Source of the DNA: Norana najaformis
Taxonomy: Eukaryota > Annelida > Clitellata > Crassiclitellata > Hormogastridae
DNA: 64,000 nt
Assembly: GCA_964023275.1 (NCBI GenBank)
Contig: OZ029914.1
Coordinates: forward strand, 39,089,424 to 39,153,423
Reading direction: 5' to 3'
A program made the translations under genes and the position numbers. Shown in pieces: positions 6,787-62,356 of the stretch. Within the stretch, counting starts at the first letter, position 1. Each line of letters starts with the position of its first letter. The notes under the pieces were generated by a model that saw only the letters and a program-made list of their open reading frames with translations, made no database searches and had not been told where the DNA came from.

Positions 6787-8303
6787 TCACTCTGCAGCAC
6801 GCAACTCCTCAAAATTGTGATACGTGTTCTGCGGGTCTTCAAAGTCGTCAATGAAATATGTCTCCCTAGACTTGTCGGGCGTCGTTTTTCCGTCATCCGG
6901 TTGTCCTCCCACGGTCATAGTTGGAGCGGCAGTGTAATGCCCAGGTGATTCTTCCGTAGCGTCTCTTTTCTGTCTCATGTTGACGGCAACTTCTGTCGAA
7001 AACGGAGCAGTGTAGAAACACGTGCCTTGTTTGAGATTTGAGTAAGGGAGCTATTAACTATTGAGTGAATGAATGAGCGAGTGATCGAGCATAATATAAA
7101 CTGATCAACTAGGCATACGTCAGATAATTAGACGATCAGTTTAACAGGCAACAGGCGGACAGTGGAAGACGATCTGAAATACAGATCACGGAAACTGGGC
7201 AGTCCGTTGTCGAGACCTCAACGCGTTAGGTTTTTTTTGGCACAAGTATTGGCGTGAAGAAGAAGTCAACGTTAGAACAATAGCTGACATGTGAAATGTT
7301 GTTTTGTTACAGAGAATATCGTTAATGAAATTTCGCCTATATGAGCCTATTAGTAAGGCGCTCATCTATTGTAATGCATTTTCAAGCGACACGAAGGCGT
7401 GCCTACCGAGCCAACATTGAGCGCATGGGTTTGAGTCTCCCTTTGTAGGGATCTTGAGTAAGACCTCAACATGCAGTTTCTGCGCCATCGGTGAAGCCTC
7501 GTTGTCATTAGGTATTAGCTCAGAAATTAAAAGGTGCGCACATGTAGAACATCCGTTACAATATTAATAAATAGTTTAGAACTGAATACGTAAAATTGCT
7601 TTTGTTAAGATGATAAAGGAAACTTAATAATCGTGATTCATACCATAATTTGCGTTGCTACGTGTTGATCTGCATTTGTTACGGACGACCATTACTGCCA
7701 CGAATAGAAGAGTGAGAAAGAAGAGAAAAATAAGTCCTAGTACCAGCAAAGCGGTAGTGTATAGACCCAAACCCAAAGCTACAATTGATAAAAACGAAAC
7801 AAACTTCTTAACTCGTTCCTCTGAATTTTATTCACAGTCTTCATTCAATAATTTTTTATCAATATTAGTCTGTGAGCAACTCTACATACAAATATTTATT
7901 CCAGTATAAAATATTGGCTTTTAACTTACGATGCAAATGCTTTTAATATCTCGGATCATAAGAGACGATCAGAAAATGGAACCTTCGGGAATTTAGATGA
8001 CTCCAACTTTGTGTACTTTGTATTTACCCTACCCCATATATATTTGTTTTGCTAGTGCTTGGAAAAGCAACTCCGCTTGTGATATTTGAAAGCTTATTTA
8101 GTAGCAATGCATATATGATCTCATTGTACCTCTGGAAATAGCTTGGAGAACAGTCTCGAGCGGAGCAGTGGGAGTGAAAGTGGCTGTAGGCGACGATGTC
8201 GATGTCGGTCCGTAAGTTGGGATCGATGTCAATGTCAGTTTGTCAGTTTGGTTCGATGTCAAGTGTGTAGTCACACTTGTGAACACTTCAGGTGTAGTAG
8301 AAT
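6787..8303 (-). CDS. Unit 1 B cassette: stalk, transmembrane and Y-x-N tail exons (no own CUB)
   Basis: Three phase-1 exons on the minus strand. The stalk is 8130-8303 (58 codons, starting DSTTPEVFTS; Thr/Ser/Pro-rich, with a possible N-glycosylation site NQT). The membrane exon is 7644-7778 (45 codons: LGLGLYTTALLVLGLIF, then basic RNKCRSTRS). The tail is 6787-6992, ending ETYFIDDFEDPQNTYHNFEE plus LRAAE and a TGA stop. Acceptors TTTTCAG, ATTGTAG and CGACAG and donors AG|GTACAA and TG|GTATGA are good. No CUB or signal exon lies between here and the A-tail exon at 13.3 kb. The cassette is therefore either an alternative 3' end for the unit 1 CUB exons or an orphan of a broken gene. Joined to those CUB exons it would give an open frame of 312 codons. 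Membrane and tail differ strongly from the other B cassettes, while the stalk start nearly matches units 2 and 3. Confidence 0.65.
7343..7560 (+). repeat. Possible tRNA-derived SINE relic
   Basis: A GCGCATGGGTTTGAGTCTCCC stretch resembles a pol III B box and is followed by non-coding sequence. No clear A box or tail is visible. The call rests on that resemblance alone. Confidence 0.2.
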
Positions 8304-9822
8304 CTGAAAATTAAATTTCAAAAATTGTTTGTCGCAACATACAGTGAACGCGTGCAACCAGCAAAACGCCTTGGTTGTTTTTTTCAACCTGCTCTGAATA
8401 TTCATCACTGCGACTGCTAGAGGATGGAAACAATAGCTGCCGAAAGATTCATAAAGAAACGAGAACTGTATATTAAACTTTTGAATGTGAAACAAGCCCT
8501 AAAATTCTCGCATGTTTGCTTTTTGGTATTGTGTCTCGTGAAAACTTGCATGTGAAGCACCTTCTGAAAAAGTATTTGGCTTTCAAGTAGAGCGTTTATA
8601 TTGCGAAATAAGTACAATAGCACTTTGTATCATGTTAAATAAAGGCTAGAAGAATTAAGGATACGTGTAATTAACCGCCATAAACAGCTTCATTTACATA
8701 TTTACCGGTTCCTTTGACAGGAAATTCGACCAAATCCATCGCCATCGTTACGAACAAAACTCGATTTAGCCAGGATGAATACATCTTCGCTTGATAACGT
8801 TTCCTGTGTCTATATTTTCCGCAAAATAGGCCTATGCTTCCTTAAAAGGATCAGTGTAAAATCTGTTACCCAATCAATGCTAACGTCCAATAATATATGA
8901 AAGAAAGAGTTGCATTAAAATGTGTGCTATTACTATACAGTTTAACCTTAATCCCTTCAGACAGGAAAATGCATTGTCGTTCATGTGGGAAGAAGGTTCA
9001 CAGAATAAAGCCTTTTTCATGTTGTTGCTAGATAACATGATAGGCTATTGATATCATACAGCTGTTTATACGGCACTTGTTAACATGATAGGCTTTTGAT
9101 ATTTGACGTCACTTGTTCCCCTCAGTTTAACTGGTATACAGGCGGCACAGCTGATGTATGAATATCCTGATTGTACAACAAAATTTTGTTTGCCTAAAAG
9201 CATTTGCCTTCGTCATATATGATTCGGTGATTCCAAGAATAACCATATCCTAAAATTTTATGAAAGATTAAATGTCATAACACGCGTCAGCATATTCTAT
9301 TTCAATAACTTACACACCCTAAGACCTGGTACTGAGAGGAATATTCAAGCATCAGCTGTGCCGCCTACCAGTTAGAACCAGGGGAACAATTGCAGAGCCT
9401 ATGAAACAGGATGTTGAAAGAGAAAGTATAAAATTAATTTGTATTAAACCAGCCGTCAACATTTGTCAGTTTGTTTTGAAGCGCCAAACATTTGATGGCA
9501 AATGCAAACACGACTGTGGAGGATGAGGCTACTTTGGATGAGGCTACATCCGTTAGCTGATAGGCGACCTAGTTCATATCAATTTATTGCATGCTACAAC
9601 CGCATTTCAAATGCGATTCAGGGCTATACACAATGTTCATCGTACGCAATCGGGAATCGTATCAAAGCTTTTTCTTTGGTTTCCAACATAAAGCGGGCTT
9701 TGCCGTGACATGCTCGGTTTTCTTTTTTATGTGACAAATTTTGTCTGCCTCTGTTGAATGTAGTAACAACATCATGACACATGAATATAGCGCACTGAGT
9801 ACTCCAGAACATTGCTGCCGAC
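8304..9822. other. Non-coding stretch with the empty LINE site and a fold-back repeat
   Basis: 8304-8890 is the unit 1 copy of sequence also present at 24732-25300 and 39220-39785. At about 8871-8882 it keeps the uninterrupted site (CCCAATCAATGCTAACG) that holds a truncated LINE in units 2 and 3. From about 8893 to 11605 the sequence has no counterpart in units 2 and 3. No exon was found. Confidence 0.6.
9113..9389. repeat. Fold-back (inverted-repeat) element
   Basis: The left arm 9113-9156 (TTGTTCCCCT...AACTGGTA...GGCGGCACAGCTGATG) is matched in reverse complement by the right arm 9350-9389 with few differences. About 190 bases lie between them. The arrangement suits a small non-autonomous DNA element. 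No clear target duplication was found. Confidence 0.5.
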
Positions 9823-10692
9823 TATAGAGTGACACGGAGACAAAAAGTTTCTCCATCCCCATCGCATACACGTGTGTCTGTTCCCATTCCAACCCCATCC
9901 CCATCAGGCCTGTCCCCATCCCCATTTCGTCCCCGCCAGGGGTTTCCCCATCCCCACTCCGTCCCCATCAGGTTTGTACCCATCCCCGTCCCCATTTCCG
10001 TCACAGTGAAGCAAAAAACAATTAACTGTTCACACATATGTGACCCGCCGCTGACAAAATAAGTTTTAAGACCTAAACCCAATTTTTTAGAAACTGACAT
10101 TATCTCCGGAACTACAATATTTGAATATTTATATAAATGATATACCAATTTAAACAAAACTGAATTCACTATTTGACAACAGAAATATATGAAAATGTGA
10201 AAATGCCACTTGATTCTTGTTGTTAGAGTGAGTAACGTATTATATGTAGATATTGTAATCTTAATCGGTCATATAACAGATAATACTTGAAAACTGTTCA
10301 TCATTTATTTGGTCGTTACATTTGGTTATAGTAAAATATCACTGCAATAAAGAGTGGTCTAACTGGTCTTATTTCTTAGGTCAAATATCAAAGCAATAAA
10401 AAGTGTTCTTAGATACTTTTTAACCTATATTGAATATTCAAGAATTCATGAATATTCAACAATTTCAATATTGCGCTTTATTAGTGACATTGAATAAGCA
10501 CAACAATTTAGAGCAAAAAGCAATTATCTGATGTAGTGGGGATTTTTGGTAATGCCACAACAGTTACCGCGGGAATTACCGTGCTCGTATTTCTATTCCC
10601 ACGGTATTACCGTCGCTTCTGACACCATTACCGCAGTAAAATCCGCAGTAACCTCGGTATTACCGCATTCCCCATTACCGTGTCACTCTCTA
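9823..10692. mobile_element. hAT-like non-autonomous DNA transposon (MITE) with 8-bp TSD
   Basis: The ends are TATAGAGTGACACGG (9823-9837) and the complement of TAGAGAGTGACACGG (10678-10692), a 15-bp inverted repeat with one mismatch. They are flanked by perfect 8-bp direct repeats CTGCCGAC at 9815-9822 and 10693-10700. An 8-bp duplication and TAGAG-type ends are typical of hAT elements. Inside the left end is a CCCCAT-rich array (about 9853-10000). Inside the right end is a GGTAAT/ATTACCG-rich segment (about 10560-10680). There is no transposase ORF. The element is found only in unit 1. Confidence 0.85.
9853..10002. repeat. CCCCATYC-type minisatellite inside the hAT-like element
   Basis: Imperfect repeats of CCCCATCCCCAT with interspersed GTCCCCATCAGG units. 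The open frames across it (Pro/Ser-rich forward, Gly/Met-rich reverse) are low-complexity by-products, not genes. Confidence 0.8.
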
Positions 10693-13316: not shown

Positions 13317-16300
13317 TCAGCGTCGGCCGATTCTACCAGCGTTAATTTCATCGGCATTCTCATAGTCTTCCTCAGGTTGCTCATAAATATCATCACTGAA
13401 ATAGCTCTCCCGAAAATTATCTGCTCTTGCACCTGTTTGTCCTCCTCTTTCCTCCGTTGGATCTACTGAATAACGGTCTATTGATTGATCCGGCACATCT
13501 TGTCCGCACTGTTCCGTACTTGAAAATATATACAAAAAAACAAATCAAACTAAGAAGATTCGCTCTGATAGATTCTGCATCAGTTTGATTGGGTGTCATG
13601 TTAAGCAAGTAAGTAAATAGCCTTTACTTACATCTGACAAGCACATACGTTACATCGCATGCAGCAATTACATACTATACATAAAAGGATTATACTGTAC
13701 CATTGGCACATATAACCGACGGACATGCGCAACTAAAAGTAACAGTTAAAACTGCTAAATATAACTTCTGCTGGTAAATGCATATGTCTACTGTAAGTAC
13801 GCATAGGACACGCGGTATTGAATTTTTATAAATCAACTTCTCAATATTCGGAATAAAGCAGCTTAGTTAAAGCTCGCTTCACATAGAGAAGCTGTCGAAG
13901 TGTTTAACTTCACCTACTTGTACTCTCCCGGCAAACCAGTCGCTAAAAATCTCCAATAGTGTTAACAATCTGAGACTGTTATTCAGTTGAGTCCTCAGAC
14001 AGGACCGGTTAAACCGTTTTTGTTATTATGATTTGAGTTTCGCATGTCTTGATAACGTATCGTGTATATTAATAGCAACAGATATGGAAACACTGAAACC
14101 AATTTTACACCATTTGGCCGATTGTTTGAATACAGTTATTTAAATACTTTAAGCTCAGCCACAGACGCTGAACACAAAAAAATATGATTAATATCACTAA
14201 AAAAATTGGTCGTGACAAATGATTTTGATTGTCAAATAGGATTCTTACCTTTGAATGCCCTGTTTTGTTCTTTTCTGCACTTCAATGCAATAATGAAGCC
14301 TACTATAACTAGAAGACTGAAACCCAAAAGGCCAACGAGAGCTAATATCAGCAGAGCGGAAGTGTTTGGACCTAAAGCTATAATAAATATAATAATAAAA
14401 TTACATAGGCCATTCTTGTAAATGTGCCTTACCATAATTACAGTATAATTAATTCTGCATGTATTAAGCGCTGCTATCTAATGATTAAGCAACAATCGAT
14501 GGCGCTGAGCAACTGAGAGTGGAGGACTTCCACACGGTTCCTACAGAGTAACTGTCTGAGGGGAGGTTCGAATCCGTACTCTACGCGTTACAAATCGAGC
14601 TCTCTAACCACTCGGCCATCGTGCCACACATGAGCTCATTTTGGGACAAGGCGATAAAAAGTGCAAACAGCTTAATAGAAAAAAGATTATTTGTGAACAG
14701 TCAGCAAAATGGATGTTATTAATAATAATGAGCTCCAGATGATTATCATTATCCGAGCTGCAGTAAAATAGTTCCATAAATTAATATAAATTTATTGGCA
14801 GAACAGTTATGATAAAGGTACTTTTATTTTAGTCCTGTTGTGCTTTCATTTTCAGAAGCTGGCAAATTTTATATGATTTGGTATTTTGTCTTTATTCAGA
14901 AATCCTTAGCCACTCACCTATATATAATGAAATTGTTTTTTAAAGAACACGTACTTTTTCTTTGAAATCTCTCTGCCACTAGGCTTTTCAAGCACTGAAC
15001 TAAACGAACCTCTGGCGATGTTGCTGAGAACGTCATTGCTATCGGAAACTTCTGTGACAATGATCGATGTGGAGCTGGCTTCGGTTGAAGTTCTCAGCAC
15101 TGTTGTTGTTGGTGGTATCGTTGTCGGTGTCAAAGTTGTTTTTCTCGTCGAAGTTCTTAGCATTGTTGTTGTTGGTGGCATCGTACATAAAGCTATGACA
15201 TATAAAGGACCCAAATGTTGATTATAAAAACAAAAACCGTTAGTTTAAATTACCAAAGCTAGAGAATCGTTAATGTGCTTCGATAAGTCTGATATGAGAT
15301 TCTTCTATAGTCGTTACATAAATTTTTGGCAGTGCATTCATAGAGTCAGCATTGATTGACCGACAAAACTGCAACGACTTTCATCAATAACTTGCATGCG
15401 TTTCCTTCCATATCATGCGCACCTACACCAGAACATTATGAACATTGTGAAGAACAGAAGATGCAGTATATTACTTCTATGTAGCCAAACTCCGCATAAC
15501 GTAAGAAATAGGTGTACATAAAGCACCTGAAATACAGATTTGTTAGCAGGTATCTCCAAACCTTTAAAGGTAGTCATAATGAGATTGGAAATCAGCTAAA
15601 CACTATGCGACTTTCACAAAGCAATAGTACAACAGAAATTTGAGTTCTATTAAGTTCTAAGAAGCCTCATAAGAAAATTCACTGCAATGTAGTGCATTTT
15701 ATTGAAAAGGAATGTTACATCCCAATTCAAAACTGTGGGTCTGAAAAATTCCTCATAAAGCAAATTTGGGTTTCTTCTTTTCTTCTTCTTTCCTCTCGTC
15801 CGTCAGGCTATAGCCGACGATGAGGCCTGAACAAAATGCCTCCACGCTTCTCTGTCCTTCGTCAGCCCTACGACTAATTTGGGTTTCTAGTAAATTCTAA
15901 AAAATCTTCGAGAAATCTCAACAGAGAATTTACTGCAATTTATATTTCATTTAAATTTTAAATTAAGGAGCGTTCTTTAAAGAAATTTTATTCCAATGCG
16001 CTGTCAAGACCTTGAAACAGAAGGTTTTCAGTGGAGGCAGAAGGTGCCATTTCAATGATAAGGACTAAGGACAAGGCGATACAGACGAGATGGTGCCAAT
16101 GCCTAAGACAGATTAAGCGATTTAGTGCATATTAGCAGTGCAATTATAATTTACAAAAAAATCATAATAGTTATGACACATAGAAACTGCATTAATGTTA
16201 TGAATGTCAACGAAAAAAGAAAATCTGCAAACTCGCATTAGTGCTTCTATATGATATTTAAATAATAACAGTAAGCTACCGAATTCAACGATAAATAATA

Positions 16301-17994
16301 CTTATGTGGACCAGGATGACGGAAAAGCATTTGGACGGCACAGCTTTTGACGGAAAACTGCATGGAAAAGGTATCAGGAGAGGATGGCGAGGCAAAACAT
16401 CACAACTTGCCCTCACACAACTACCCTCACTTGAGTACATCCGTAGAGAGAGAAAGGTAGCTTAGGATTCTGCAACTTATTATTTCTGCCATTGCATCTA
16501 TATTTATTAGACACCATTATCTAACGACTAAACATATTTCTATGGCGCTGAGCAGTATTATTGTGCATGAAGAACTTGATCAAGGTCTTTACACCGTCAC
16601 CATCCGGGGAAGGCTTGAGCCCGTACACTCCGCGAGCACTAAAACCAATTGGCCATCGTGTTAAGTTTTCAACTTAAGCGCCAAGTACCATTTATTATAT
16701 TCTAAGTAGCAATAATTGAATAGGCCTATATGTAAGTGAAATGGAGTTTAACAGGTTTCATATTTACCTCGTTGAAAAGCGTAATAAAACCTGAATCCTC
16801 TTCTAGACTCTGACCCATCTGTACGAAATCGTATTACAGCGTGGTTACAAGACGCATAAGAAATAACACGTGCTTCTCCTAACTGGCAAATCTTTTGCTT
16901 GTTTCCAATATCTGATGAGCACCATATCTGAAAGTATATTAATTACAATGGCACTCCAGAAGACAGTGTACTCAGTGAGTACTAAATAATCTTGCAAGTT
17001 CTGTATTCGTGGAAAGCATTCAGCTGAAAATGCAATATCCTGACACTGAACATCGAATATCGTGAAAAACAGATTAGTTATCATACATCGTTCCTAAGGC
17101 TCAGTATCCAATTTTTCTGTCCCAATCCCGATTCACACTGTCTCTGCATCTTAATTAGTGTGCATATATTTAAAGTAAAGTTGTTCAAATCAACCTTACT
17201 TACATATATTCATAACAAACGATTTCTTGTTAGCAGTAAACCAACCAATTATACATATAATGTTGTCACAACGCCTCTTTTAAGAATTGACATACTTACC
17301 TCGACATAGTCGTAGGCACAGGCAGAATGTAATTCAAGATCAATTGTTTCATAAAAAATAGTCAAAGAAGTTTGTCCATAAGTCCTAAGGTTATAAGTGC
17401 AGTCGAGATTATGGGCGTAAAGGTTCGGAAAGCCTGGAGAAGAGACAGATCCCACAGGAGCATAATATTCCGTTCCATCACAAACTGAAAACAACAATAA
17501 ATTAAAATTTTTTAAATATATTGGCTTCTTCTGGTTTAAACCAGTAAAAATAAATCGTCAGAAATCAGGTCAGGTTTCATTTTTTCTCATTATGTGTAGT
17601 GGTATTCAATTTAAAATGTTAAAATACATCGATCAATGTTTTATCACCGCGTTCTGGATTTATTTCTGAAGCGTCATTTTAATAGGTGAAGTATTTTCAG
17701 TCAATTATGTTAAAATTAGGATTGTTCAAATACTACTGGCACGCCCTAACTTCAACTAAAGAACTTTCAACCTCGTGCCTTCACAAATTAACTGCTTGGA
17801 AACAAATGCACAAAATATTAATTTACATTGTCCTGTCTTATACTGCGTAACGGAGGCGGTGACATTCACAAAAGTAATATCTATTACAGGCCTATTCCTA
17901 CACGTCACTTTTTACCTTGGGCATGACACTGAACAAAACAGCTTGTCAACGCTAACGTCATGACCAATGCCTTATTTATCCAGATGCTTTCCAT
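13317..17994 (-). CDS. Unit 1 CUB receptor (signal, CUB, stalk, TM, tail) with damaged tail acceptor
   Basis: Exons on the minus strand: signal peptide 17916-17994 (MESIWINKALVMTLALTSCF), CUB halves 17300-17484 and 16768-16927, A stalk 15010-15192, membrane 14249-14377, tail from about 13519 to the stop at 13317-13319. The CUB has DYVE, a GF.FYYAF end and six Cys. The stalk is Thr-rich, with PPTTT.LRTST twice. The membrane exon (ALGPNTSALLILALVGLL) is followed by KCRKEQ. It is probably a type I cell-surface protein; the ligand is unknown. At the tail exon the acceptor is TTTTCAAG where units 2 and 3 have CAG|GC or TAG|GC. Using the displaced AG shifts frame, and the product stops 13 codons later (13478), losing the tail with DYENADE. 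That would give about 258 residues against 312 for unit 2. The unit 1 B cassette downstream could supply another tail. Confidence 0.75.
14457..14632 (-). mobile_element. tRNA-derived SINE, copy in unit 1 intron
   Basis: The minus strand reads GGCACGATGGCCGAGTGGTTA, a strong pol III A box of tRNA-Leu/Ser type. A B-box-like GGATTCGAACC follows, then an unrelated body ending GCGCTTAATAC. Five relatives lie in the same orientation at matching places in units 1-3. Confidence 0.65.
15780..15882. repeat. Unclassified dispersed repeat, unit 1 and 2
   Basis: A CTTCTT-rich start is followed by CTCTCGTCCGTCAGGCTATAG and GCCTCCACGCTTCTCTGTCC, then a resumed copy of the flanking words AATTTGGGTTTCT. The repeated flank (15766 and 15876) suggests a small insertion with a target duplication. 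It recurs at 30349-30470 and seems absent from unit 3 near 44970. Confidence 0.4.
16500..16662 (-). mobile_element. tRNA-derived SINE, second copy in unit 1
   Basis: Same family as the copy at 14.5 kb: the head reads CACGATGGCCAATTGGTTTTA, then GGGCTCAAGCC, then a body with CTCAGCGCCAT and a tail TGTCTAATAAATA. It is more decayed in the A box. Confidence 0.55.
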
Positions 17995-24335: not shown

Positions 24336-24564
24336 CTACAAATGATATCACCATAAAAGTATTTCAGAATAAGAATCATGCACTATCAGAAACCTATATA
24401 AAATATTTAATTCCCGGTATTTGAATCATAACTTAGTTACATTTGAGTGGTTTTTAAAAATATTGTCAAATTTGATCTAATTCTCTGAAAGATTTATTGC
24501 TTTCTGCTTAAATGAAGATTTAACCAGTTTTAAACTGGTTCTTAAAATTTTTATTATTACTCTG

Positions 24565-24731
24565 TTACACATAGCTGCTGTCATATATGTAAAACTGAAT
24601 GGCTGAAGTGGCCGTAGACGTCGATGTCGATGTCGGTCCGTAAGTTGGGATCGATGTCAATGTCAGTTTGTCAGTTTGGTTCGATGTCAAGTGTGTATTA
24701 ACACTTGTGAACACTTCAGGTGTAGTAGAAT
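24565..24731 (-). pseudogene. Unit 2 B stalk exon, truncated at a recombination joint
   Basis: The exon starts normally (TTTTCAG, then DSTTPEVFTSVNTHLTS, nearly identical to the unit 1 B stalk). Near 24605 it changes into sequence that matches the stalk-TM intron of unit 4. The AG|GT donor of the intact exon is lost, and the frame runs to a TAA at 24565. It could act as a terminal exon giving a secreted CUB-stalk form, but no polyadenylation signal was checked experimentally. Confidence 0.65.
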
Positions 24732-44323: not shown

Positions 44324-47300
44324 GGTGGTGTCGTACATAAGGCTATAACATAAATTGGACCCAAATATTACTTAGAAAGGCAAAACCTAAAGGTTGTTTA
44401 GAAAGAAAAAACCCAAATGTTGTTTAGAAAGACAAAACTCTCAATTTAAATTACGTACCAAATCTAGCAGAATGGTTTATGTGTTTCGATAAGTCTTACG
44501 TCAGATTCTACTACTCGTTATATAATCTTTTGGAGAACAATCTAGATGGAGTCAGCAGTGATTGAACGATAAAATTACAGCCACATTCATCGATAACTTG
44601 TACGAATCTTCTTTCATATTATGCGCACCTACATTCGAAACTCTAACTACCGAAAGAAAGAAGATGTAGTCTATTACTATTATGCAACCAAATTCCACGT
44701 AACATAGTAATCAGGCCAATATGAAGGACCACGAGCAGCGGATTTGTTAACAAAATAACACTGCACCTTCAGAAGGTAGATATTGAGAGATTGAAATCAA
44801 CTAAAAATGTACATTCTTTACAACGCAATAACAACAGAAACTTTGGGATCTTAGTAAATTCTAAGAAAGTTCAACAGTAAATTGGCTGCAATGTAGCGTG
44901 TTATATTGGAAAGAACTGTTAAATTATAATTCAAAACTGTAGGTCTACAGTCTACACAAAGCAGTACATTAGCAACTTTGGGTTTCTAGTAAATACTTAG
45001 AAATCTCAAAGAAATCTCAACTGAGAATTTACTACATTGTAATGAAAACGAATGTTATATAAAATGTTACATTCTAAATTAATGGGCGTCCTTTAAAGAT
45101 ATGTATTCAAATGCGCTCTCAAGACTGTGAAACAGAAGGTTTTCATAGGAGGCAGAAGGCATCATGAGCAACCATTTCATTGGTCATGACTAAACAAAAG
45201 AGGGAGCGAGATTAGATATCTACAAAAGACAAGGGGTATAATGCACAGCAACTGTGCGAGAATAAGGTAGAAATAATTTATATTAGCCACGAAGCATAGA
45301 AACTGCAGTAATGTTATTAATGTCAAATAAAACGAAAATTTGCAAAATAGCATGAGTTCTTCTATATGATATTTACATAATAACAACTAGCATACGAATG
45401 TAACTATAAATGATATTTAATGGAAGCCAGAATGACAAACTGAACTAAACAAAAAGTGCCATGTCCTTAGATTAGATTTTGTGCCGTCTAAAACGAACAT
45501 AGATTACACTGGCCAACACATAATTTGTTGCCTCAAATGTTAGAACTGTTTCTGGGTATATTTGACCTGCTGATTCCAGAAAAGGCACCAGTTTTCTCCC
45601 AGCAGGTCTAGTTTTCGAGATATAGAACATTATGCCATATACCAGTCCTTGCCTCTGCTCGCCCATAAAACATAAGGCTATAGCTATAATTATGTAGTGC
45701 TCAATTTATTATGTGATACACTAAATAAACATAATAATACAAATACTTAAAAGAAAATGGTAGTACCTGAAACTGTACTTATATGATACCAAACAGAACA
45801 AGTTTGTTATAAAAATTTCAAGTCATTCGACACCGAAGAAGCTCCTTTTGTACGATTTCCGAGTGTGGCATCTGCCGGAACAATCGCGCATAATATTCCA
45901 GCAATAGTCTGCCATCATGTGTGCATCCCATCTTCCTTGATATCGATTTTCCATTGTTTTGATGTCTTGGTGAAATCTTTCACCTTGCTCTTCGCTGAAG
46001 TCACCAAGATTCTCTGGAAAGCGATCTAAGTGACTGTGGAGATAATGGACTTTAATGCTCATGTTGCAGCCAAGCTTGTTGAAATGAAGAAGCATATCCT
46101 CTACTAGTTGTGCATAATTGTCTGCCTTCTTGTTGCCAAGAAAATTTTTAGTTACAAGAACAAAGGAAGACCAGGCACAAGATTCGATTTCATTCATTGA
46201 TGGTATGAAAAGTGGGTCATTCATAAGTTGCCTGATCTGTGGACCATCGAAGATTCCAGCCTTCAATTTTTCCATTGTAATTCCTGGTAACTTGTGTACT
46301 ATGTATTCGAAGCATGAACCTTCTTTATTCGAAGCCCTGACAAATTGTTTCATCAGGCCTAGCTTTATATGTAGTGGTGGCAGTATGATCCTATCTCGTG
46401 CCACCAAAGATTCCTTGATTACATTTTGAGCTCCAACCACCATGTCTTTCCTCGAAGGCCAATCTTTTCTTGTCCAATGTTCATGCTTGGCTCTACTGTC
46501 CCAAAGCTGACACAAAAAGCAGGGATACTTTGTGTAGCCACTTTGTTGACCAAGGAGGAAATTTACCATCTTCAAGTCTACACAAATTACCCATTGATGT
46601 TCTTTGTATTTTATCTTTTCCAGTACTAAAGAGATGGCATTGTACTCTTCTTTCATCCTGGTGGAGTGACCGATTGGAATAGAACCAAATTTGTTGCCGT
46701 TATTTAAAAGCACACATTTCAGACTACGTTTTGAACTGTCGATAAAAAGACGCCACTCATCTGGGCTGTAATCCGACAGACCAATTTTCTTCAATAAGTT
46801 GCTGATGTCATTACAGAATACTAGGTTGTTGTCTTCGGTAAAGAATGGCAGCAAATCCTTTTCTCTGTTTCTATAAATTATAATTTTCTTTCCAGGCTGA
46901 AGTGCATTCTTTTCCTTTAGTCTGGACGCAAGCAATTCAGAGGACTCTTTGGAAAGATTTAAGTCCCTGATCAGATCACTCAACTCTTTTTGGTCAAAAC
47001 GTTCACTGTGTGAAGTTGATTGGAAATCACTGTCACTGCCCCCACTTTCTTCACTTTCGTCATCTTGTCCGATATTGGACATGCAAGTCTCATCGTCTGA
47101 GAGCTGAGGTAGTTCGCGAAAAGGTGGAACTGGTACAATATCCGAATGCGGAACAGGTCTCCTGGCTGAAGGTATATCAGAGTAAGACAACTTGTGACGA
47201 TTATTTCGATTGATGCCTATGATATTAACCATACAAAAGTAACAGTCGTCGAAGTGGTTTATCTGTTCCCTCCAAACCATCGGTACACCAAATTTCAGGC

Positions 47301-50300
47301 AGCTTCTCTTTCCAATTGTCCAGTGGCGCAATTGTTCAATACAAGTTTTGCATACTGTATGAGGAGCCCATTGCTTATCTTGATCTCCAAGTTTGACACC
47401 AAAATAACCTACATATGCTCTTTTTACAAACTCAGAAAACGGTTTCCTGTTTGCTTTTAGTGTGTATTCCCCACAAATGTAGCAGAATATGTCTGGATGG
47501 TTAATGCAGCTCCGTCTCGAAGTAGCCATAACCTTAAGGATGTTCGCATCTGAGGAATTAAATGACTAACCTAAAAAATAGTAAGAACATGTAGTTATTT
47601 AATGCTCACATTCACAGATTGTTCTTGCGACCAACTCTTAATATGCCCTAAGACGACTGCGGCTGCTCTAGCTTTCAGGAGGCGGTTTATATAGGCTATA
47701 AATGCTGACTTCAGCATAATCTATTTACATAGTTCGAAACCATGAAACGCTGTATAAGCACAAATAAATTCTAAATGAGGCCATGAATTTAGTGCTGAGT
47801 AAGCTTTAGGCTACGGAATAGTTATTTCGTTGAATCAGCAATATCTCAGGACGCGGCAAGATATGCTGATTTTACATTATAAGGATGTAGGCATTATATG
47901 AATCAGCAAGAATTATAAAACTCCGCCACAGGGGACTGCAAGCCAGCAGTCCCTTGCGCCGGTCCTAAGCCCGGATAAAGGAGGAAGGTTTGCCAGATGG
48001 GTGTCGATACTCTGGCAGTAAAAACCAAGACGATTGAAATCTGATGCCAAACAAAAAGGATGCAAGTACATGCCGGCTCGGACGTCCCCCGGTAAAACAA
48101 GGTCCGCGAAACCAATCGAGCGATCGGGGTTGGATCGACAAATTAGCTACCGAAAGAAAAAGTCTGAAGCCCGCAAGAGAAATGATATCGGTGGGCACAT
48201 GGAATGTCCGCACCCTATGGGCGGCAGGGAAGCTGGAGATGCTGGAAGAGGAAATGTCAAGATACAGATGCGACATACTTGGAATATCAGAGATGCGTTG
48301 GACACAATCAGGCGAGATGAGGAATGGAGGAATAATATGGTCTGGAGATCCCAGCAGACATGAGGCAGGAGTGGGATTTCTGCTCAGCAACAGAGCCAGA
48401 AATGCACTCATCCGCTACAGACCCGTGAACAAAAGGATGATGCTGGCACAGTTCAGTGCACAACCATTCAACATAACAACAATTCAGGTTTACGCACCAA
48501 CGGCTGAAAGCAGTGAAGAGGAGATTGAAGACTTCTACTCAAAGTTGACAGAGCTGATCGGAGAGGTACAGAAGAAGGATACACTCATAATTGGAGGAGA
48601 CTGGAACGCTAAAATCGGTACTGATAGAACGGGATGGGAAGGAGTTATGGGCAAATATGGTTTTGGAGACCGGAATGAAAGGGGTGAAAGACTACTGGAG
48701 TTTGCGGTAGACAATGACCTGACCATCTGCAATACAAGATTCCAACAAAAACAATGTCGAAAGTGGACATGGCGCTCCAGTGATGGACAAACAAGAAACA
48801 TGATTGATATGATCTTAATAAGACGAAAGTGGAACACAGCAGTTCAACTATGCCGTACTTTTCAAGGTGCTGACATAGACTCGGACCACAGCTTGGTCAT
48901 GGCAAACATCAAACTGAAGCTAAAGAAAAAGCATGAGCCATGCTTTGTGAAGCGAAGGAACATTGAAAGACTGAAGGAGGAGTCTACCAGGATCAAGTAC
49001 CAACAGGCGTTAGGAAGGAATTTAAAAGAACTTGAGGAAGAGCAGGACTTGGAAAGCAGAACAGAAAAACTAACTGCAGCAATAAACAATGCGATAGAGG
49101 AGGCGGTTCCAGAAGAAGAAAAGATCAAGCAAAAGTGGATAACACAGGAGACATTGCGGCTGATACAGGAAAAGAGGGAGCTAAAACTCAAAAGAGACAC
49201 ATCACAGGTAGCAGAACGGAAATACAAGGAGAGTTGCAACAGGGTGAGGAAGGCAGCAAGAGAGGATAAAGCACAATGGTTGGAACAGCAGTGCAGGGAA
49301 ATTGAAAAGAACTTTGGAGAAGGCAAAAGCAGAGAAGTCTACAAAATGATAAGAAATGTAAACAGAAACTGGCAACCGAGACTCACAGCAATAAAAGACG
49401 AGAAGGCTAAAATGCTAACAACAAAGGAAGATATAATACAGCGATGGACGGAATATTGCAGTGAATTATATAGCGAACAGCCAAATCAAGATCTTACTAG
49501 AGAGATAATAAAAGAACTAAAGGCTATCTCCCCTCCGACGACGGAAACAAACACAGACATATTGTTAGAGGAAGTTCAAAAAGCGATAACAAGGTTAAAA
49601 AACAATAAAAGCCCTGGTAGAGACAACATCACGGGAGAAATGATCAAGCATGGAGGAGATCTTCTGTTGGGTGAAATCCACAGGTTATGTAACATGGCAT
49701 GGGAGCAAGGACAAGCACCGGAAGAGTGGAAGAAGTCGATATTGGTAACAATCTACAAAAAGGGAAGTCCATTGGAATGTAACAACTACCGCACCATTGC
49801 GCTGATAAGCCACCTGGGCAAGGTGCTGATGATGGTATTGGCGGAAAGATTAAGGAGCCAGATGGAGGAATACTTGACGGATGAGCAGGCGGGATTTCGG
49901 AAGGATAGAAGCACGATACAACAAATCTTGGCTTTAAGACTAATAGCAGAAAAAGCAAGGCGAAAGAATAAAAAGGTATACAACTGTTTTGTAGACTTTA
50001 AGAAGGCATTTGACAGTATAGACCAGAACGTGACATGGGCCGTTCTACAATCGTATGGGGTTGACAACAAACTGATTCAGTTGTTACGAGACATAAATGG
50101 TACTTCACAAGCGGCGGTCAGGACATGTGGCAAGTTGGGACCGTGGTTTAGAACCAACAGGGGTATGAGACAGGGCGATCCAATATCGCCCATGGTGTTT
50201 ATAACAGATTTGGAAAGAGCAATGGACAGGGTCAAGAGCAAAGGAATATCAGTTCAGGGAATATGCATAAACAATTTACGTTTTGCAGATGATGTGGACA

Positions 50301-53137
50301 TATTGGAGGAGGGACCTACAGAGCTGGAGTGCACAACACGAATGCTGAATGAAGAAGCAAAGAAATATGGACTGTACATGAACTTTGATAAGACAAAAAC
50401 AATGGTATTTGGCGACAAAAACATCACCCAGCAGATAGTGGTTGAAAGAATGCAGCTGGAGAATGTAGAGAGGTTCACTTATCTTGGAAGTAATATGACA
50501 TATGACCTAGATTGCAAAAGTGAAATAAAGATACGAATAGCGAGGGGAATAGCAGTGTTGAAAGCAATGGATAAAACTTGGAAGAGCAGAGCAATCAGCA
50601 TGAAAACAAAACTGGAGGTATTAAAGACATGTGTATTTAGCACCATGATGTATGGATGTGAGACATGGGTCCTGACAAAAGACTCACGACGGAGAGTCTT
50701 GGCATTTGAAAGAAAATGTTACAGAAAAATCCTAAGGATCGGATGGACTCAGAAGATTAGGAATGAAGAGGTTTACGAAAGAGTGGCTATAACCGAGAAT
50801 CTACTGCAGAAGGTTATTCAGCGAAAACTTGGATTGTTTGGACATATCTGTAGAATGAAGGATGACAGAAATATTAAGACTCTGATGTTTGGAATTATGG
50901 AAGGTACGAACAAGAGAGGCAGACCACATCGAGAGTGGGTGGATGACATTGAGGAGTGGTGTGGCGCGGACTTGCAGAGACTGGGACATGCGGCTCAAAA
51001 CAGAATCGAGTGGAGACACATTGTGAAACGGGCATCGGACACCTACGGGCATTGAGCCCACGGTTGTTGATGATGATGATGAAGAATTATAATTAGCCAT
51101 AAATAAAGCTTATTATGACATTTTAGTTTTGTCAAAGACATCGTTTAAAGAGTGGACTGGGTTTTCTTTACAAAATCGACGATATCTCAGAAACTAGACC
51201 TGATGCACTCAATCCAATGACATTTTCTGAATCAGCGCCCAAAATTACCCCAAGAACAGGTCTAAAACCGAAGGCAACAAGAAAAAAAATTTTTTCTGTT
51301 GGCCAGTGTTATTAGACTCCCAATAGGCAAGCTTCTATTTTCCAGCTTGATGAGTGTCGTTTCTAACTTAGGATCACATGAATTATGTGGACCAGGACAA
51401 CAAAAAAGGTTTTGGACGATACAGTTTTAAGGATTGGCACACTGCATGCCTGTTTCAGGCGCTGCCATACTTGCCTCCACCCTGTCGTAGCCACAGCCAG
51501 CAGTAGATTCAAGACGGGAAGGCAAGGTACGGCGTCGCATTGTGGATACGGCTAAGCTCTCTAAAGAGAGAATGGTAGCTTAGGATTTGATCAATTATTA
51601 TTTTTGTCATAATATCTGTATTTATTAAGCGCCAATTTACAATGACTAAAGTTACTAAACATCATTCGATGGCACTGAGCAATGTTATTGTGCGTGAAGG
51701 ACTTGATCAAGATCCCTACACACTCATCGTCTCCAGAAGGCTTGAGTCCGGCACTCCGCGAGCGCTCAAACCAATTGGCTACCGTACATGTTAAGTCCTT
51801 ACATTAAGTACCAAGTACCATTTCCTGCATTTTAAGCAGCAACAATTTAATTGAATACATGTGAGTGAACTGCTGGCTTTTCATCAGGCTGGCTTCATTC
51901 TCACCTTGTTGAAAAGCGTAATAAAACCGGAAACCTGTCCTCGAAATTGAGTAATCTGTACGGAATTGAATTACAGCGTGGTTGCAAGATGCATATGAAA
52001 CAGCACGTGGTTCTTCTAACTGGCAAAGCTTTCGCTTGCTTTCAAAATTTGATGAGCACCATATCTGAACATAAATTAAAATAAATTCCAATGACACTCC
52101 AACATAGACGCTATACTTTTAGTTTGACGTCGCTAAGCACTAATATAAATAATCTTGCGAGTTCTATTTTCGTGGAAAACATTAACCGAAAATGCATTAT
52201 CATGCCACTGAACATCGTGCAAAGAGATTCATTCTCAAGCATCGCTGCTAAGGCTCAGAATTCAAGTTTCTATCCCACTCTCGATTCACACTGTCTCTGT
52301 TTCTTAAATGATGTGATATATTTAATGTGGCTCAAATAAGCCTTCTATCTAATTCACAATAAACGATTTTTGTTAGCAGTGATTCTCTCATTATATGCGT
52401 TGCTGTCACAATGCCTGTTTCAGACACTGCCATACTCACCTCCACCCAGTCGAGGCCACAGCCACTAGCAGGTTCAAGATCAATTGTTTCATAAAAAATA
52501 GTCAAGACGTTTTGTCCATAAGCTCTAAGGTTATACGTGCATTGAAGGTTATTGGGGTAAGAGATCGGAAAGCCTGGAGAAGAGACATATCCCACAGGAG
52601 CTGAGTATTCCAATCTACCACAATCTGGAAAAAACCAACATTAAAATCTGTTTATAAATGTTTTGGCTTCCGGTTTAAACCAATTACATAAATAATTCGT
52701 CAGAAATCAGTTTAGGTTTGATTTTTTCTCATTATATATAGTTTTATCCAATTTGCAATGTTAAGATACGTCTACCAATATGTCATCGCTGCGTCCTGGG
52801 TTTATTTCTGCAGCGTCATGTGAATAGCGAATTATTTTCAACCATTTAAGTATGCTAAATTTAGGATTGTTTAAGAGCTACTGATACGTCCTCCGTCAAC
52901 TGAAGAACTTTCAAACTCGCGATTTGTCATATTAGCTTCTTGAAAATTAATATATAAAATATTAATATACATTGCTACATTTTATACTGCGCACTGGAGG
53001 CGGCGACATTCACAAAAGTAATGCCGATTACAGGCCTATCCCTACACTTCACTTTTACCTTGGGCATGACACTGAACGAATCCGCTTGTCAGCGTTAACG
53101 TCACGATCAATGCCTTATTTGTCCAGATGCAGCCCAT
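42402..53137 (-). CDS. Unit 3 CUB receptor, six exons interrupted by a nested transposon
   Basis: Exons: 53059-53137 (signal peptide MGCIWTNKALIVTLTLTSGF), 52440-52624 and 51905-52064 (CUB), 44157-44342 (stalk), 43462-43590 (membrane), 42402-42604 (tail). The total is 942 bases, 313 residues plus stop, phases consistent, all sites canonical. The CUB is clearly diverged from units 1 and 2 (DCGRLEYSAPVGYVSSPGFP, GLDWVE) but keeps six Cys and the GF.FYYAF end. The stalk begins with six Pro, then Thr runs broken by one Lys, an expansion of a coding triplet repeat. The membrane exon is LGPNSSSLLILVLVGLLGL. The tail keeps FRESYFNDDIYDQPEEDYEN and the Y-x-N motif. The intron between second CUB exon and stalk is about 7.5 kb because of the inserted transposon, against about 1.6 kb in units 1 and 2. 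The role is inferred to be a type I surface receptor; the ligand is unknown. Confidence 0.82.
43666..43840 (-). mobile_element. tRNA-derived SINE, unit 3, first copy
   Basis: The best tRNA-like head of the family: GGCTGCCAAGTGGTTAGAGC, then GGTTCAAGC (B box) and a body ending CGGCACTTAATAAATGCC. It lies at the position equivalent to the first SINE of units 1 and 2. Confidence 0.65.
44270..44335. repeat. (GTT)n/(GGT)n triplet repeat inside the stalk exon
   Basis: A coding microsatellite. On the minus strand it encodes the Pro6 and Thr-rich part of the unit 3 stalk. In units 1 and 2 the same place has only GTTGTTGTTGGTGG. Confidence 0.9.
45823..47529 (-). CDS. Transposon-borne 568-residue zinc-motif protein, probable transposase
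   Basis: One uninterrupted frame, ATG to stop. It resembles a repeated family of uncharacterised animal proteins, often annotated as hypothetical, that I know from its pattern rather than by name. Visible parts are C16-x2-C19 with C60-x2-C63 (zinc knuckle of the ZAD or THAP-like kind), a second C96-x2-C99, an acidic Ser-rich linker (about 145-175), LFIDSSK at 261, ICVDLKMVNFLLG at 315, C337-x2-C340, PPLHIKLGLMKQFV near 384, and FPENLGDFSEEQGERFHQD near 504. D264, D318 and E517 could form an RNase H-like DDE triad; this is a guess from spacing and context. It lies inside a pair of inverted repeats, as a transposase would. No stop or frameshift is seen, so the copy may be recent. A captured host gene is the alternative. 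Confidence 0.7.
   Translation of the reverse strand: MATSRRSCINHPDIFCYICGEYTLKANRKPFSEFVKRAYVGYFGVKLGDQDKQWAPHTVCKTCIEQLRHWTIGKRSCLKFGVPMVWREQINHFDDCYFCMVNIIGINRNNRHKLSYSDIPSARRPVPHSDIVPVPPFRELPQLSDDETCMSNIGQDDESEESGGSDSDFQSTSHSERFDQKELSDLIRDLNLSKESSELLASRLKEKNALQPGKKIIIYRNREKDLLPFFTEDNNLVFCNDISNLLKKIGLSDYSPDEWRLFIDSSKRSLKCVLLNNGNKFGSIPIGHSTRMKEEYNAISLVLEKIKYKEHQWVICVDLKMVNFLLGQQSGYTKYPCFLCQLWDSRAKHEHWTRKDWPSRKDMVVGAQNVIKESLVARDRIILPPLHIKLGLMKQFVRASNKEGSCFEYIVHKLPGITMEKLKAGIFDGPQIRQLMNDPLFIPSMNEIESCAWSSFVLVTKNFLGNKKADNYAQLVEDMLLHFNKLGCNMSIKVHYLHSHLDRFPENLGDFSEEQGERFHQDIKTMENRYQGRWDAHMMADYCWNIMRDCSGRCHTRKSYKRSFFGVE
47919..51081 (+). mobile_element. Full-length RTE-type LINE with 11-bp target duplications
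   Basis: The direct repeats AAGAATTATAA at 47908-47918 and 51082-51092 bound an element of 3,163 bases. It has a 125-base 5' leader, one ORF, and about 26 bases after the stop ending in (TGA)n. A single endonuclease-RT ORF with a very short 3' region closed by a triplet repeat is the RTE plan. It has inserted into the DNA transposon. Confidence 0.93.
48044..51055 (+). CDS. RTE-type LINE polyprotein (AP endonuclease + reverse transcriptase)
   Basis: 1003 residues in one frame. The N-terminal apurinic-type endonuclease shows GTWNVRTLW (51-59), ISEMRW (81-86), IIGGDWN (182-188) and the SDH active-site motif (280-282). The reverse transcriptase follows, with NNKSPGRDNITGEMIKHGG, NNYRTIALISHLGK, DEQAGFRKDRST, VDFKKAFDSI, GMRQGDPISPMVFI and the catalytic LRFADDVDIL near residue 748. 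The C-terminal region has MMYGCETWVLTK, LFGHICRMKDD and RGRPHREWVDDIEEW. Reverse transcription is primed at nicked target DNA in the nucleus. All key residues are present, so the copy looks competent, and the two truncated copies in the window are almost identical to it. The ATG is the first in frame after the leader. A shadow frame at 48034-48363 is not a gene. Confidence 0.92.
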   Translation: MPNKKDASTCRLGRPPVKQGPRNQSSDRGWIDKLATERKSLKPAREMISVGTWNVRTLWAAGKLEMLEEEMSRYRCDILGISEMRWTQSGEMRNGGIIWSGDPSRHEAGVGFLLSNRARNALIRYRPVNKRMMLAQFSAQPFNITTIQVYAPTAESSEEEIEDFYSKLTELIGEVQKKDTLIIGGDWNAKIGTDRTGWEGVMGKYGFGDRNERGERLLEFAVDNDLTICNTRFQQKQCRKWTWRSSDGQTRNMIDMILIRRKWNTAVQLCRTFQGADIDSDHSLVMANIKLKLKKKHEPCFVKRRNIERLKEESTRIKYQQALGRNLKELEEEQDLESRTEKLTAAINNAIEEAVPEEEKIKQKWITQETLRLIQEKRELKLKRDTSQVAERKYKESCNRVRKAAREDKAQWLEQQCREIEKNFGEGKSREVYKMIRNVNRNWQPRLTAIKDEKAKMLTTKEDIIQRWTEYCSELYSEQPNQDLTREIIKELKAISPPTTETNTDILLEEVQKAITRLKNNKSPGRDNITGEMIKHGGDLLLGEIHRLCNMAWEQGQAPEEWKKSILVTIYKKGSPLECNNYRTIALISHLGKVLMMVLAERLRSQMEEYLTDEQAGFRKDRSTIQQILALRLIAEKARRKNKKVYNCFVDFKKAFDSIDQNVTWAVLQSYGVDNKLIQLLRDINGTSQAAVRTCGKLGPWFRTNRGMRQGDPISPMVFITDLERAMDRVKSKGISVQGICINNLRFADDVDILEEGPTELECTTRMLNEEAKKYGLYMNFDKTKTMVFGDKNITQQIVVERMQLENVERFTYLGSNMTYDLDCKSEIKIRIARGIAVLKAMDKTWKSRAISMKTKLEVLKTCVFSTMMYGCETWVLTKDSRRRVLAFERKCYRKILRIGWTQKIRNEEVYERVAITENLLQKVIQRKLGLFGHICRMKDDRNIKTLMFGIMEGTNKRGRPHREWVDDIEEWCGADLQRLGHAAQNRIEWRHIVKRASDTYGH
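51615..51790 (-). mobile_element. tRNA-derived SINE, unit 3, second copy
   Basis: Equivalent to the second SINE in units 1 and 2: head GTAGCCAATTGGTTTGAGCG, then GGACTCAAGCC and a tail GGCGCTTAATAAATACAG. Confidence 0.55.
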
Positions 53138-59062: not shown

Positions 59063-62000
59063 TTAACACTGGCGACTGATAGTTTCGGCCTCCACCTCCA
59101 TCATATTGAGATATTCGTTCTGAGTATCATCAAAGTCGTCGTCGAAATCGATCACCCTAAAATTGTCGAATCCTCCAGCTCCGTTAGCTGTAGCTGTTTG
59201 TCCTTCTCTAGTTTCGTTTGAATGACATGTGTAACACTCAGCCGGTGGTTCTGCAATACCCTCTTCTCGCGAATCTTTGCTGGTAACTATTTATCAAAAC
59301 AGAAAGTGCTTATAAATGTGTACATCGATCATGCAGCCTTAAGGTTAGAAAAGGTTTGGGTGTACATTTTTAGGTTATAACAACTACAAGAAATTTAAGG
59401 TTTTCAGTGCTAACTGTGCATGGAAAACATTTAAAAGCGTTTTAGAGGCAGTAAACACTTAAACATGAATAAGTACAAGTCGTAGGCCTATTTGTGACAC
59501 AGTAAATTGAACAAGAAGAAAAATAACTCATACCAAATATCTTCTTGCCTCCTTTTCTTCTACACGTTAGGCAGATAGTCAGAGCGAACACAAACAGACA
59601 ACTGAGACTCAACAGACCAATCAGTCCTACTATCAGCAGTGCCGAATAGTTTGGGCCTAGCACTACAAATTTTATCACCACAAAAGTATTTCAAAATAAG
59701 AATCATGCACTATCAGAAACCTATATATAATACTTAATCTCCGGTATTTGAATCATAACTTAGTGACGCCTACGTGGTTTTTAAAAATATTATCAACTTT
59801 GATCTAATTCTCTGAAAGATTTATTGGGTTTTCTGCTTAAATGAAGATTTAACCAGTTTTAAACTGGTTCTTAAAATTAAATTTTTATTATTACTCTGCT
59901 ACACCTAGCTGCTGTTATGTGTAAAATAGAATGCTTAATAGTAATGCATTTTAAGCGATATGAATTGGACATAAAATCTGCGTATACTTGTAGCAATGCG
60001 GAGGATGAAGTTCACATTATCTGAAACTTGGGTAACGGGAGAACTGACTTCGGTCGTAAGTGTCAAAGGCTCTGTTTGAATCCCTAACGGATTTTTCGCT
60101 GGTGCTGTACTTGAATCTGAAATTTAAATTATATCAATACTACTTATTTATTGAATAAAGCAAGTGATAGTAAAGATTGAACCAGCCTAGAATTATTTAA
60201 TATAATTTTATATTTTATAGTTACGCTGCTACATCTAGTCACACTTGTAAGTGGAGCTAAATGCTTAATAATAATAAGTTTATTTGTTTTATAACTTAAA
60301 ACAACTGAATTTTGTCAACTTGTTGCAAAGAAGCTAATAATACTTTACTGTTTGAAATTCTGGAAACAACGGATCTGCCCCGGGTTTCGGTGTCATAGTG
60401 TATAATCCCTTTTTCTGTGGGTAACATTCTTAAATCTGATGCATAGAAATATTCAGATACATGAAATTAACAGTCAACAACGTTTGCGTGAAGAAGGGAG
60501 CCTAGAACTGACACGTAGCAATAGATGACAATTTAAACTCATGGCAAGATAAGACTAAGGAACATTTAAGAAACTCTCAAAGTGCCTCTGAGATGTTTTA
60601 AAGGCATTATATAAATATTCAGATACATGTACATGTATATACACAATTACATAAACTGATTCAGAATACTCAACTCTATCTTTATAGAACTTTGGAAACT
60701 ATCTTCAAGGATAATTTTCTAAGAAGACGTACAGTATATTGACCAGCTGAAAAACATTAGGACGTCAAGGCTGGACAACAACTATAAGGTCATTTCTTTA
60801 TGACTCGCTAGATGGCTGGTAAGATGAAAATTTTATAAGTTCGGAAGGGCATAGGCTTGAATTTCGTTATTTTTCGTGGTTTTTTCTTCGCTTTTTGGCA
60901 TTCAGAGTCAATCAGCGTCAGATTTCACGTTTGGAAGTAACCCGACCTTAGATTATATGAAGTACTCATGGTATCAGTACATTTCTATGGTCACAATTTA
61001 ACACTCATAATTGTCTGAATGACATACAACTAACTCTATATGTTCTACACCCATAAGTCTTAAACCTGCACGTTTGTGCAATGCACACCTTGAGTTGCAA
61101 GTACCTGAGACCAAGAAGTCATGAAATTGCAACCATTGTTAATTACTTTGATGTGTATGTCAGTCTATGATAAGTAGATCAAGGCAATCTGCAAATTCTT
61201 ATACGCATTGTGTTAAAATGGGATGACCAGCTATGATGGTGACGACGAATATAACGATGATGATTATGATGTGGATAATCATCATCATAATCATCATCGG
61301 CAGCAGCAACAACAACATAATCTATTAAGCAACAGCAACAACATAAACAAGATCATCATTGTCAGCAAGAACATCATCACAACCATGATAAGAAAAACAA
61401 CATAGCAAGAATAATATTTGGCAAAAAACAATTCTGTAGCAATAACTAAGAAAATAAAAATTTATATAGAGCGAAACTAAACTGACTTCATGATTTTGCC
61501 ATTTAAAATAACTAAAAACGCCAAACACATTGCCAAATTAACCACAATCAGAACTATAGCGGGTTGAGATTATACTTTATGAAGTCTTTGATTTATCTTC
61601 TTCAACCTGTGATCTGCATAAACTGAATCGAAGAGCATGCATTAGCTGAAAATTACCGGATGCCCGTGAATCTGTATTCTCATTCGTTTTTATTTCAGTT
61701 GGCTGAAACTGATAGACCAACTGGAATCCTATTCCTGATTCCGACTCATCCGTGTAGAAACGCACCTCAGCATGGTTGCACGTTGCATAAGTAATGGTTG
61801 GTGGTCGGGTGGACCCACAGAACCGCTTCATGTTCTTTGCTTGCACGCATCGTATCTAAACCAATTTTTCATGAATAGGCGTATTAAGTAAACAAAAGAC
61901 ATAAATCATAACGCCATTCATACTGAACACTTGGGCTCATCTTCTAATCTTTTGTTTATAGAAGTCTCTATGCTTCATTAATTTAATCATGCTGGCCTCT

Positions 62001-62356
62001 CGTAAACATCAATAACTTTTTCGATTGTGCTGTTGACTTGAGCAATCATTTACAAATGACTTTTTAAAGGCCTAAGCAGCGAATGTGAATGAAAGTTTGC
62101 AATCAGACATATTCACAAGTAGGCTATATTGATAAGATGATTTCAAATATTACTTTCATACTTGCCTCAACCCAATCATTTTGGCATTTGATACTGGTTT
62201 CCAACCCAAATGAAGAGAATTCAATCCTCAAGGAATATTGTCCGGAAATCCTAATATTATAAATGCAATCGAGGTCTGCATGGTAACTTTTCGGATAGCC
62301 AGGAGAAGAGATTATTCCGTCAAGCATCGTGTGTTCTGTTTCATTGCAATTTTCGC
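59063..62356 (-). CDS. Unit 4 CUB receptor with B-type stalk, TM and tail (signal exon not found)
   Basis: Exons: CUB 62166-62356 and 61657-61855, stalk 59988-60116, membrane 59534-59662, tail 59063-59286 (TAA at 59063-59065). Phases agree with the other units. The CUB is the most diverged (IISSPGYPKSY, CQNDWVE, CNHAEVRFYTDESESGIGF) but keeps the same six Cys and is followed by about 15 extra residues. The donor after the first CUB exon reads GAG|GCAAGT, a GC-type donor, where the other units have GTAAGT or GTGAGT. The stalk is short (43 codons, DSSTAPAKNPLG...). The membrane segment LGPNYSALLIVGLIGLLSL and the tail with FDNFRVIDFDDDFDD and EYLNMMEVEAE match the B cassettes of units 2 and 3. 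I found no signal-peptide exon up to the window end. This gene shows that B cassettes can belong to a complete CUB gene. Confidence 0.75.
60117..61656. other. Intron of unit 4 between CUB and stalk
   Basis: Unique sequence with no homology to the other units that I can see. A triplet-rich patch at 61223-61340 is the only notable feature. Confidence 0.6.
61223..61345. repeat. (GAT)/(CAT)/(CAG)/(CAA) triplet-rich patch
   Basis: Mixed triplets that create Asp-, His- and Gln-rich open frames. This is an imperfect microsatellite, not a gene. Confidence 0.85.

Follow-up and report, generated by a model that had tools for sequence, protein, structure and literature searches.

We find that a 64,000-nucleotide stretch of contig OZ029914.1 from the annelid Norana najaformis (C2:39089424-39153423, referred to below as the window) holds a tandem array of genes built around a single CUB domain. 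Our analysis supports reading them as a tandem family whose members are type I membrane proteins with one CUB each and a short, acidic tail bearing tyrosines, and it supports the turnover of this family via duplication and recombination. Four CUB ectodomains and seven cassettes of stalk, transmembrane (TM) segment and tail lie on the minus strand, as do all the receptor exons found. Two of the genes have splice-consistent frames for the whole receptor anatomy, the array is a product of tandem duplication, and one unit is a recombinant. The best explanation, to which we give about an even chance, is that these genes form a tandem family of small CUB receptors of type I with a tyrosine-signalling tail.

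Gene structure and the CUB domain

Units 2 and 3 are complete on paper. Spliced from window coordinates, they encode 312 aa and 313 aa, respectively, up to the stop, each from six exons with intron phases 1-0-1-1-1 and with GT-AG borders in 10 of 10 introns, and the product runs in the order signal peptide, CUB, Thr/Pro stalk, one TM segment and acidic tail. In unit 2 (minus strand) the signal-peptide exon, coding from the ATG (MESIWINKALVMTLALTSCFVQCHAQ), lies at 32503-32581 (donor GTAAAA, exit phase 1) and is followed by CUB exon 1 at 31887-32071 (acceptor TTTTCAG, donor GTAAGT, exit phase 0), CUB exon 2 at 31356-31515, the Thr/Pro stalk exon at 29601-29783, the TM exon at 28839-28967 and the tail B exon with its stop at 27909-28111. 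The corresponding exons of unit 3, also on the minus strand, are found at 53059-53137 (coding part of the signal-peptide exon), 52440-52624 and 51905-52064 (CUB exons 1 and 2), 44157-44342 (Thr/Pro stalk), 43462-43590 (TM) and 42402-42604 (tail B with stop). Both products begin with a start codon and a hydrophobic stretch, and the four top hydropathy windows of each fall in the TM exon, with a top 19-residue mean of 2.99 for unit 2 and 3.21 for unit 3, as for a single-pass type I protein; the signal peptide and TM calls were made from hydropathy and reading of the sequence. A preliminary description of this DNA had given the intact genes this plan and a length of 312-313 residues, which holds for the splice-consistent frames of units 2 and 3 and fails for units 1 and 4.

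The profile search proposed with that description bore out the CUB assignment. The unit-1 product, typed by hand, matches Pfam CUB PF00431 at residues 28-137 with 57.8 bits (E 1.6e-15) against a curated cut-off of 21.4, covering profile positions 1-110 of 110, and up to an E value of 1 it contains no further Pfam domain. There is one CUB per spliced product and not the long tandem run of cubilin-like proteins. In a PDB sequence search the nearest solved relatives were cubilin, with 1.5e-28 across four stretches, and PCPE-1 (1.6e-18), with MASPs and neuropilins also among the best matches. All of these share the CUB domain with the window genes, but they combine several CUBs with other domains, unlike the small plan of CUB, stalk, TM segment and tail seen here.

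All four CUBs of the window carry an added cysteine pair, I-[WR]-C ... A-[ST]-C-N-H-A (IWC...ASCNHA in CUB exon 2 of unit 2), with units 1 and 2 identical in this part. The pair is absent from cubilin and PCPE-1 in their alignments to the window CUB. As a control we aligned the four window CUBs with eight CUB loci of the same genome (8 of 150 scored matches), and the pair was absent from the six loci aligned at both places (L001, L003, L004, L006, L007 and L008), with one of these places falling within or next to a gap in L004 and L006. For the remaining two, the alignment with L005 covered just the first half of the locus, and none was obtained with L002. By eye, LE, C..D and F-x-TD residues are present in units 1-4, and LE...C..D and F-x-TD are presumably the calcium ligands (Glu, Asp, Asp) of the calcium-binding (cbCUB) subset.

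Duplication, recombination and damaged units

Comparison of the window with itself reveals a tandem repeat with a period of about 14.5 kb. The match is 97% between 12.7-18.8 and 27.3-33.4 kb and 96% between 21.9-28.3 and 36.4-42.8 kb, and parts of 51.6-59.9 kb give weaker matches (77-87%). Together with the placement of the exons on the minus strand, these repeats uphold the tandem order on a single strand that had been described. The outer limits given for the array also stand: the stop codon that closes tail A1 ends at 6787, and the acceptor of unit-4 CUB1 is directly followed by base 62356. A tblastn search locates four of four CUB1/CUB2 exon pairs. The earlier count of four CUBs, four class B and three class A cassettes is right in its total of seven cassettes and wrong in its classes, the fourth CUB-linked cassette (59.0-60.1 kb) being class A.

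Along 5.0 kb (18550-13551), each 250-base step shows an identity of 0.98-1.00 between units 1 and 2, which falls from the tail exon onward to 0.92, 0.92 and 0.87. Identity between units 2 and 3 is 0.82 at 28280-28031 and 0.94 in the next step; it then reaches 0.98-1.00 in all steps between 27780 and 25031 and is 0.93-0.99 beyond. As the partner in identity thus switches from unit 1 to unit 3 near the tail B exon, unit 2 is a recombinant of a unit-1-like ectodomain and a unit-3-like downstream part, with the switch at about that exon. Unequal crossing-over is the simplest reading of its origin, and gene conversion is an alternative. We suggest that duplication and unequal crossing-over could keep generating new combinations of ectodomain and tail.

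The array had also been called fast-evolving, which the exon-wide ratios of replacement to silent change (dN/dS, by the NG86 method) do not bear out. Between units 2 and 3 they are 0.49 for the signal exon, 0.82 for CUB1, 0.46 for CUB2, 0.20 for the stalk, 0.63 for the TM exon and 0.88 for the tail. In comparisons with both silent and replacement changes and an unsaturated dS, no exon exceeds 1 (range 0.20-0.89), and positive selection finds no support in these usable comparisons. For CUB2, the comparisons of unit 4 with units 1 and 2 were excluded because dS was saturated, and the TM exons of A2 and A3 differ from that of unit 4 by 7 and 6 replacement changes, respectively, and by no silent ones, which is too few to count. 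CUB1 is the most divergent protein part between units 2 and 3 (amino acid identity 0.69, against 0.82 for the tail), and diversifying selection at single sites may be compatible with the exon-wide ratios.

The other two CUB units are damaged or incomplete. Unit 1 (14249-17994, minus strand) has a signal exon at 17916-17994, CUB1 at 17300-17484, CUB2 at 16768-16927, a stalk at 15010-15192 and a TM exon at 14249-14377, with the reading frame of a tail B at 13320-13517 (minus strand). The acceptor that precedes the tail exon in units 2 and 3 (CTCAG/GCAAGG and CTTAG/GCAAGG, the slash marking the border) is lost here, the equivalent being TTCAAGTACGG. Because this acceptor has changed, the tail of unit 1 is not joined as those of units 2 and 3 are, and unit 1 is not the intact gene it had been taken for. 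In unit 4 the CUB exons occupy 61657-62356 (minus strand), with CUB1 at 62166-62356, ending in a GC-type donor (GAG/GCAAGT), and CUB2 extending from 61855 to 61657, where an in-frame GT donor of phase 1 stands; by eye, we could recognise no signal exon between these and the end of the window at 64000. The cassette that follows (59066-60116, minus strand) has its stalk acceptor at 60116, its TM exon at 59534-59662 and a tail ending at 59066. We assign it to class A since its tail DNA is 0.936 identical to A2 and 0.931 to A3, and its 2.4 kb block shows an 87% match to those of A2 and A3.

The remaining class A cassettes, all on the minus strand, are A3 (38246-39219; stalk from 39219, TM 38697-38825), A2 (23756-24731; TM at about 24207-24335 by analogy with A3) and A1 (6787-8303; stalk 8130-8303, TM 7644-7778, tail stop at 6787). 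None has a clear CUB of its own, and tblastn for CUB remnants near them gave chance-level matches alone, the lowest E values outside known exons of the window being 0.19 (595-717, containing a stop) and 0.25 (51475-51513). The latter match, on the minus strand just downstream of unit 3 CUB2, is a candidate end fragment of a CUB exon 1 (LESTAGCGYDRVE).

The acceptors of the A stalks enter in phase 1, as the B stalk does, so joining a CUB2 exon to an A cassette further downstream would keep the frame. A1-A3 each follow a B gene on the same strand, and these features, with the lack of a clear CUB, could suggest that they serve as alternative 3′ ends of the upstream CUB gene. We consider this improbable, although it would be compatible with the receptor family we favor: a splice-site scan for stalk donors, which left out A2, lists no in-frame donor for the A3 stalk, and the class A cassette of unit 4 follows its own CUB, so that A1-A3 may be orphans. 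In unit 4 the sole stalk donor listed is a phase-0 GT. Of the earlier description of these cassettes as "alternative", the phase-compatible entry stands and a donor in A3 was not found.

The same features bear on whether the window consists mostly of decaying duplicates of a larger family, with one gene or none in use. The lost tail acceptor of unit 1, the class A cassettes without a clear CUB, the possible CUB1 fragment at 51475-51513, the missing A3 stalk donor and the presence of a long interspersed nuclear element (LINE) and another mobile-looking open frame within the units all point in that direction. On the other hand, units 2 and 3 have open frames throughout and good splice sites, and their CUB exons have dN/dS values below 1 as given above (with no test against 1), and we regard this reading as unlikely.

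Cytoplasmic tails and comparison with known receptors

The tails are acidic and roughly 57-70 residues long, and alignment of four of them indicates that the A and B tails are homologous. A Y-x-N motif is present in seven out of seven, as DYENAD in B1-B3, NTYHNF in A1, NDYLNM in A2 and A3 and NEYLNM in unit 4; its position is the same across the four aligned tails, and the remaining three are close copies. In A2, A3 and unit 4 it coincides with Y-x-x-M (YLNM), and the other four tails have Y-x-N only. Scanned from the first conserved tyrosine onward, none of the seven contains the pattern of an immunoreceptor tyrosine-based inhibitory motif (ITIM) or Y-x-x-[ILV], and by eye the hydrophobic cores of the TM sequences have no charged residue. 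Activating members of paired receptors carry a charged TM residue. The earlier suggestion of paired receptors, if taken to mean activating and inhibitory ones, is thus unsupported on both counts, the ITIM and the TM core. As seen from the sequence, what appears to be new here is the extra cysteine pair of the CUB and the Y-x-N across the tails, joined by Y-x-x-M in three of them.

In general, Y-x-N is a Grb2 SH2 motif, and CD28, whose ectodomain is an Ig V domain, offers a parallel. One source on CD28 describes a Y-x-N-M tail site for PI3K and GRB-2, reports that the tyrosine of YMNM is required for binding of both, and states that loss of its asparagine stops GRB-2-dependent NF-kappaB activation (PMC4286576). 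The YLNM of A2, A3 and unit 4 resembles this site. By contrast with CD28, the window genes carry one CUB, with no further Pfam domain in the unit-1 product up to an E value of 1, and the likeness is most likely convergent and limited to the short motif. We propose that the CUB, with its cbCUB-like residues, would bind a protein ligand, which might be self, gamete or microbe, that a tyrosine kinase would phosphorylate the conserved Y-x-N, that the phosphorylated motif would recruit a Grb2-type SH2 adaptor, and that the YLNM tails could recruit PI3-kinase too, like the YMNM of CD28. For the tails, the step from motif to function is our interpretation of the sequence.

Cubilin, our best solved match, is an uptake receptor, and the family could alternatively serve adhesion or ligand capture, as in gamete binding or clearance, with a tail that anchors or sorts the protein without tyrosine signalling. 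In line with this, CUB1 of an ascidian proacrosin binds vitelline-coat proteins and CUBs take part in adhesion and fertilisation (PMC9265791). However, between units 2 and 3 the tail has changed less than CUB1 (amino acid identity 0.82 vs 0.69), and Y-x-N is retained in all seven tails. The argument from tail conservation is weakened because the tail lies at the recombination point, and we see adhesion or capture without signalling as possible but doubtful, more so than the signalling receptors we favor.

Several known proteins resemble the window genes in part. CDCP1 and DCBLD have a CUB outside and a tyrosine tail inside, but CDCP1 has three CUBs and DCBLD has LCCL and F5/8C domains next to its CUB, as against the single CUB here. 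We found no named family with the plan of CUB, stalk, TM segment and tail in searches of the open-licence PMC literature, subscription journals not being covered. Receptors that are encoded in clusters and combine a single type of domain with a tyrosine tail are of a known kind, and the domain used here is CUB. Gene clusters of this sort, which recombine and encode one recognition domain and a tyrosine tail, are a usual substrate of immune and self/non-self recognition. For the window genes such a role, or one in pathogen recognition, as suggested earlier, is conjectural. The fester/FcoR (FF/FcoR) genes of Botryllus are likewise clustered type I receptor genes, and the FcoR tails have tyrosine motifs, one of which splicing can swap for another in oligomorphic FcoR loci (PMC12065747). 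FcoR differ in having Ig and sushi ectodomains, and tails that can carry an ITIM or a hemi-immunoreceptor tyrosine-based activation motif (hemITAM); the ITIM pattern is missing from all tails here.

A number of points weigh against a signalling receptor family. Only two of the four CUB units are complete within the window, and the genes are known here from genomic sequence. Y-x-N is only three letters long, the seven tails are related copies, and the B2 tail has lost another tyrosine (ESCFSD). The control locus L003 has a cysteine at the first extra place, so that this cysteine alone is no mark of the family. In five other clusters of the genome, known from CUB exon-1 matches alone, 11 of 64 matches have internal stops.

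Other CUB clusters and mobile elements

These clusters came from a search of the assembly (608.4 Mb, 17 contigs) in which 150 matches were scored out of 529 candidates, and clusters were tallied by eye. Among those scored, three CUB exon-1 matches fall in the window and 64 more form five same-strand clusters, at C2:37.93-38.21 Mb (16 matches, all minus), C2:45.62-45.84 Mb (14, all plus), C6:0.69-0.85 Mb (21, all plus), C1:4.55-4.65 Mb (9, all plus) and C2:19.92-19.95 Mb (4, all plus). All 64 begin at profile position 1, and 62 of them end at 59-72, the intron place of the window genes. This shared place is no proof of membership, because a dense array at C1:25.1 Mb has it as well; that run of CUBs on one strand (25.108-25.157 Mb) is perhaps a long cubilin-like gene.

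The cluster in the window may be one outpost of a larger family of recognition receptors. A bolder version, which we think has a small chance of being right, would have dozens of single-CUB receptors across the genome, with one ectodomain joinable by alternative splicing or unequal crossing-over to two tail classes, Grb2-type only (YENA) or Grb2-plus-PI3K (YLNM). If that version is true, a CUB-based, CD28-like recognition system would have evolved independently of Ig-based ones. If the genes are expressed and present in the other clusters, the joining of CUB to a CD28-like tail site would be an independent case beside the Ig/sushi-based one of Botryllus, with tail peptides and ectodomains that are directly testable.

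A LINE with an open frame of 1005 aa, encoding endonuclease and reverse transcriptase domains, lies at 48038-51055 (plus strand) of the window, and parts of it, 98.7-98.8% identical, stand in inverted orientation at 25.3-26.3 and 39.8-40.7 kb, adjoining the A2 and A3 cassettes. The long intron of unit 3 contains an open frame of 580 aa (45823-47565, minus strand), which has no Pfam match above cut-off and is perhaps derived from a mobile element. Scans of the whole window for tRNAs and Rfam families gave 0 hits. A GC-rich 32-base tandem repeat of 3.4 copies is found at 9878-9987, in surroundings of otherwise low GC. Elsewhere in the nuclear assembly, four COX1 matches (L009-L012) lie in two places on C15, at about 412 kb and 570 kb, with ND2-like frames nearby and with 4, 5, 9 and 13 as candidates for their genetic code, and we read these mitochondrial-like stretches as nuclear mitochondrial fragments.

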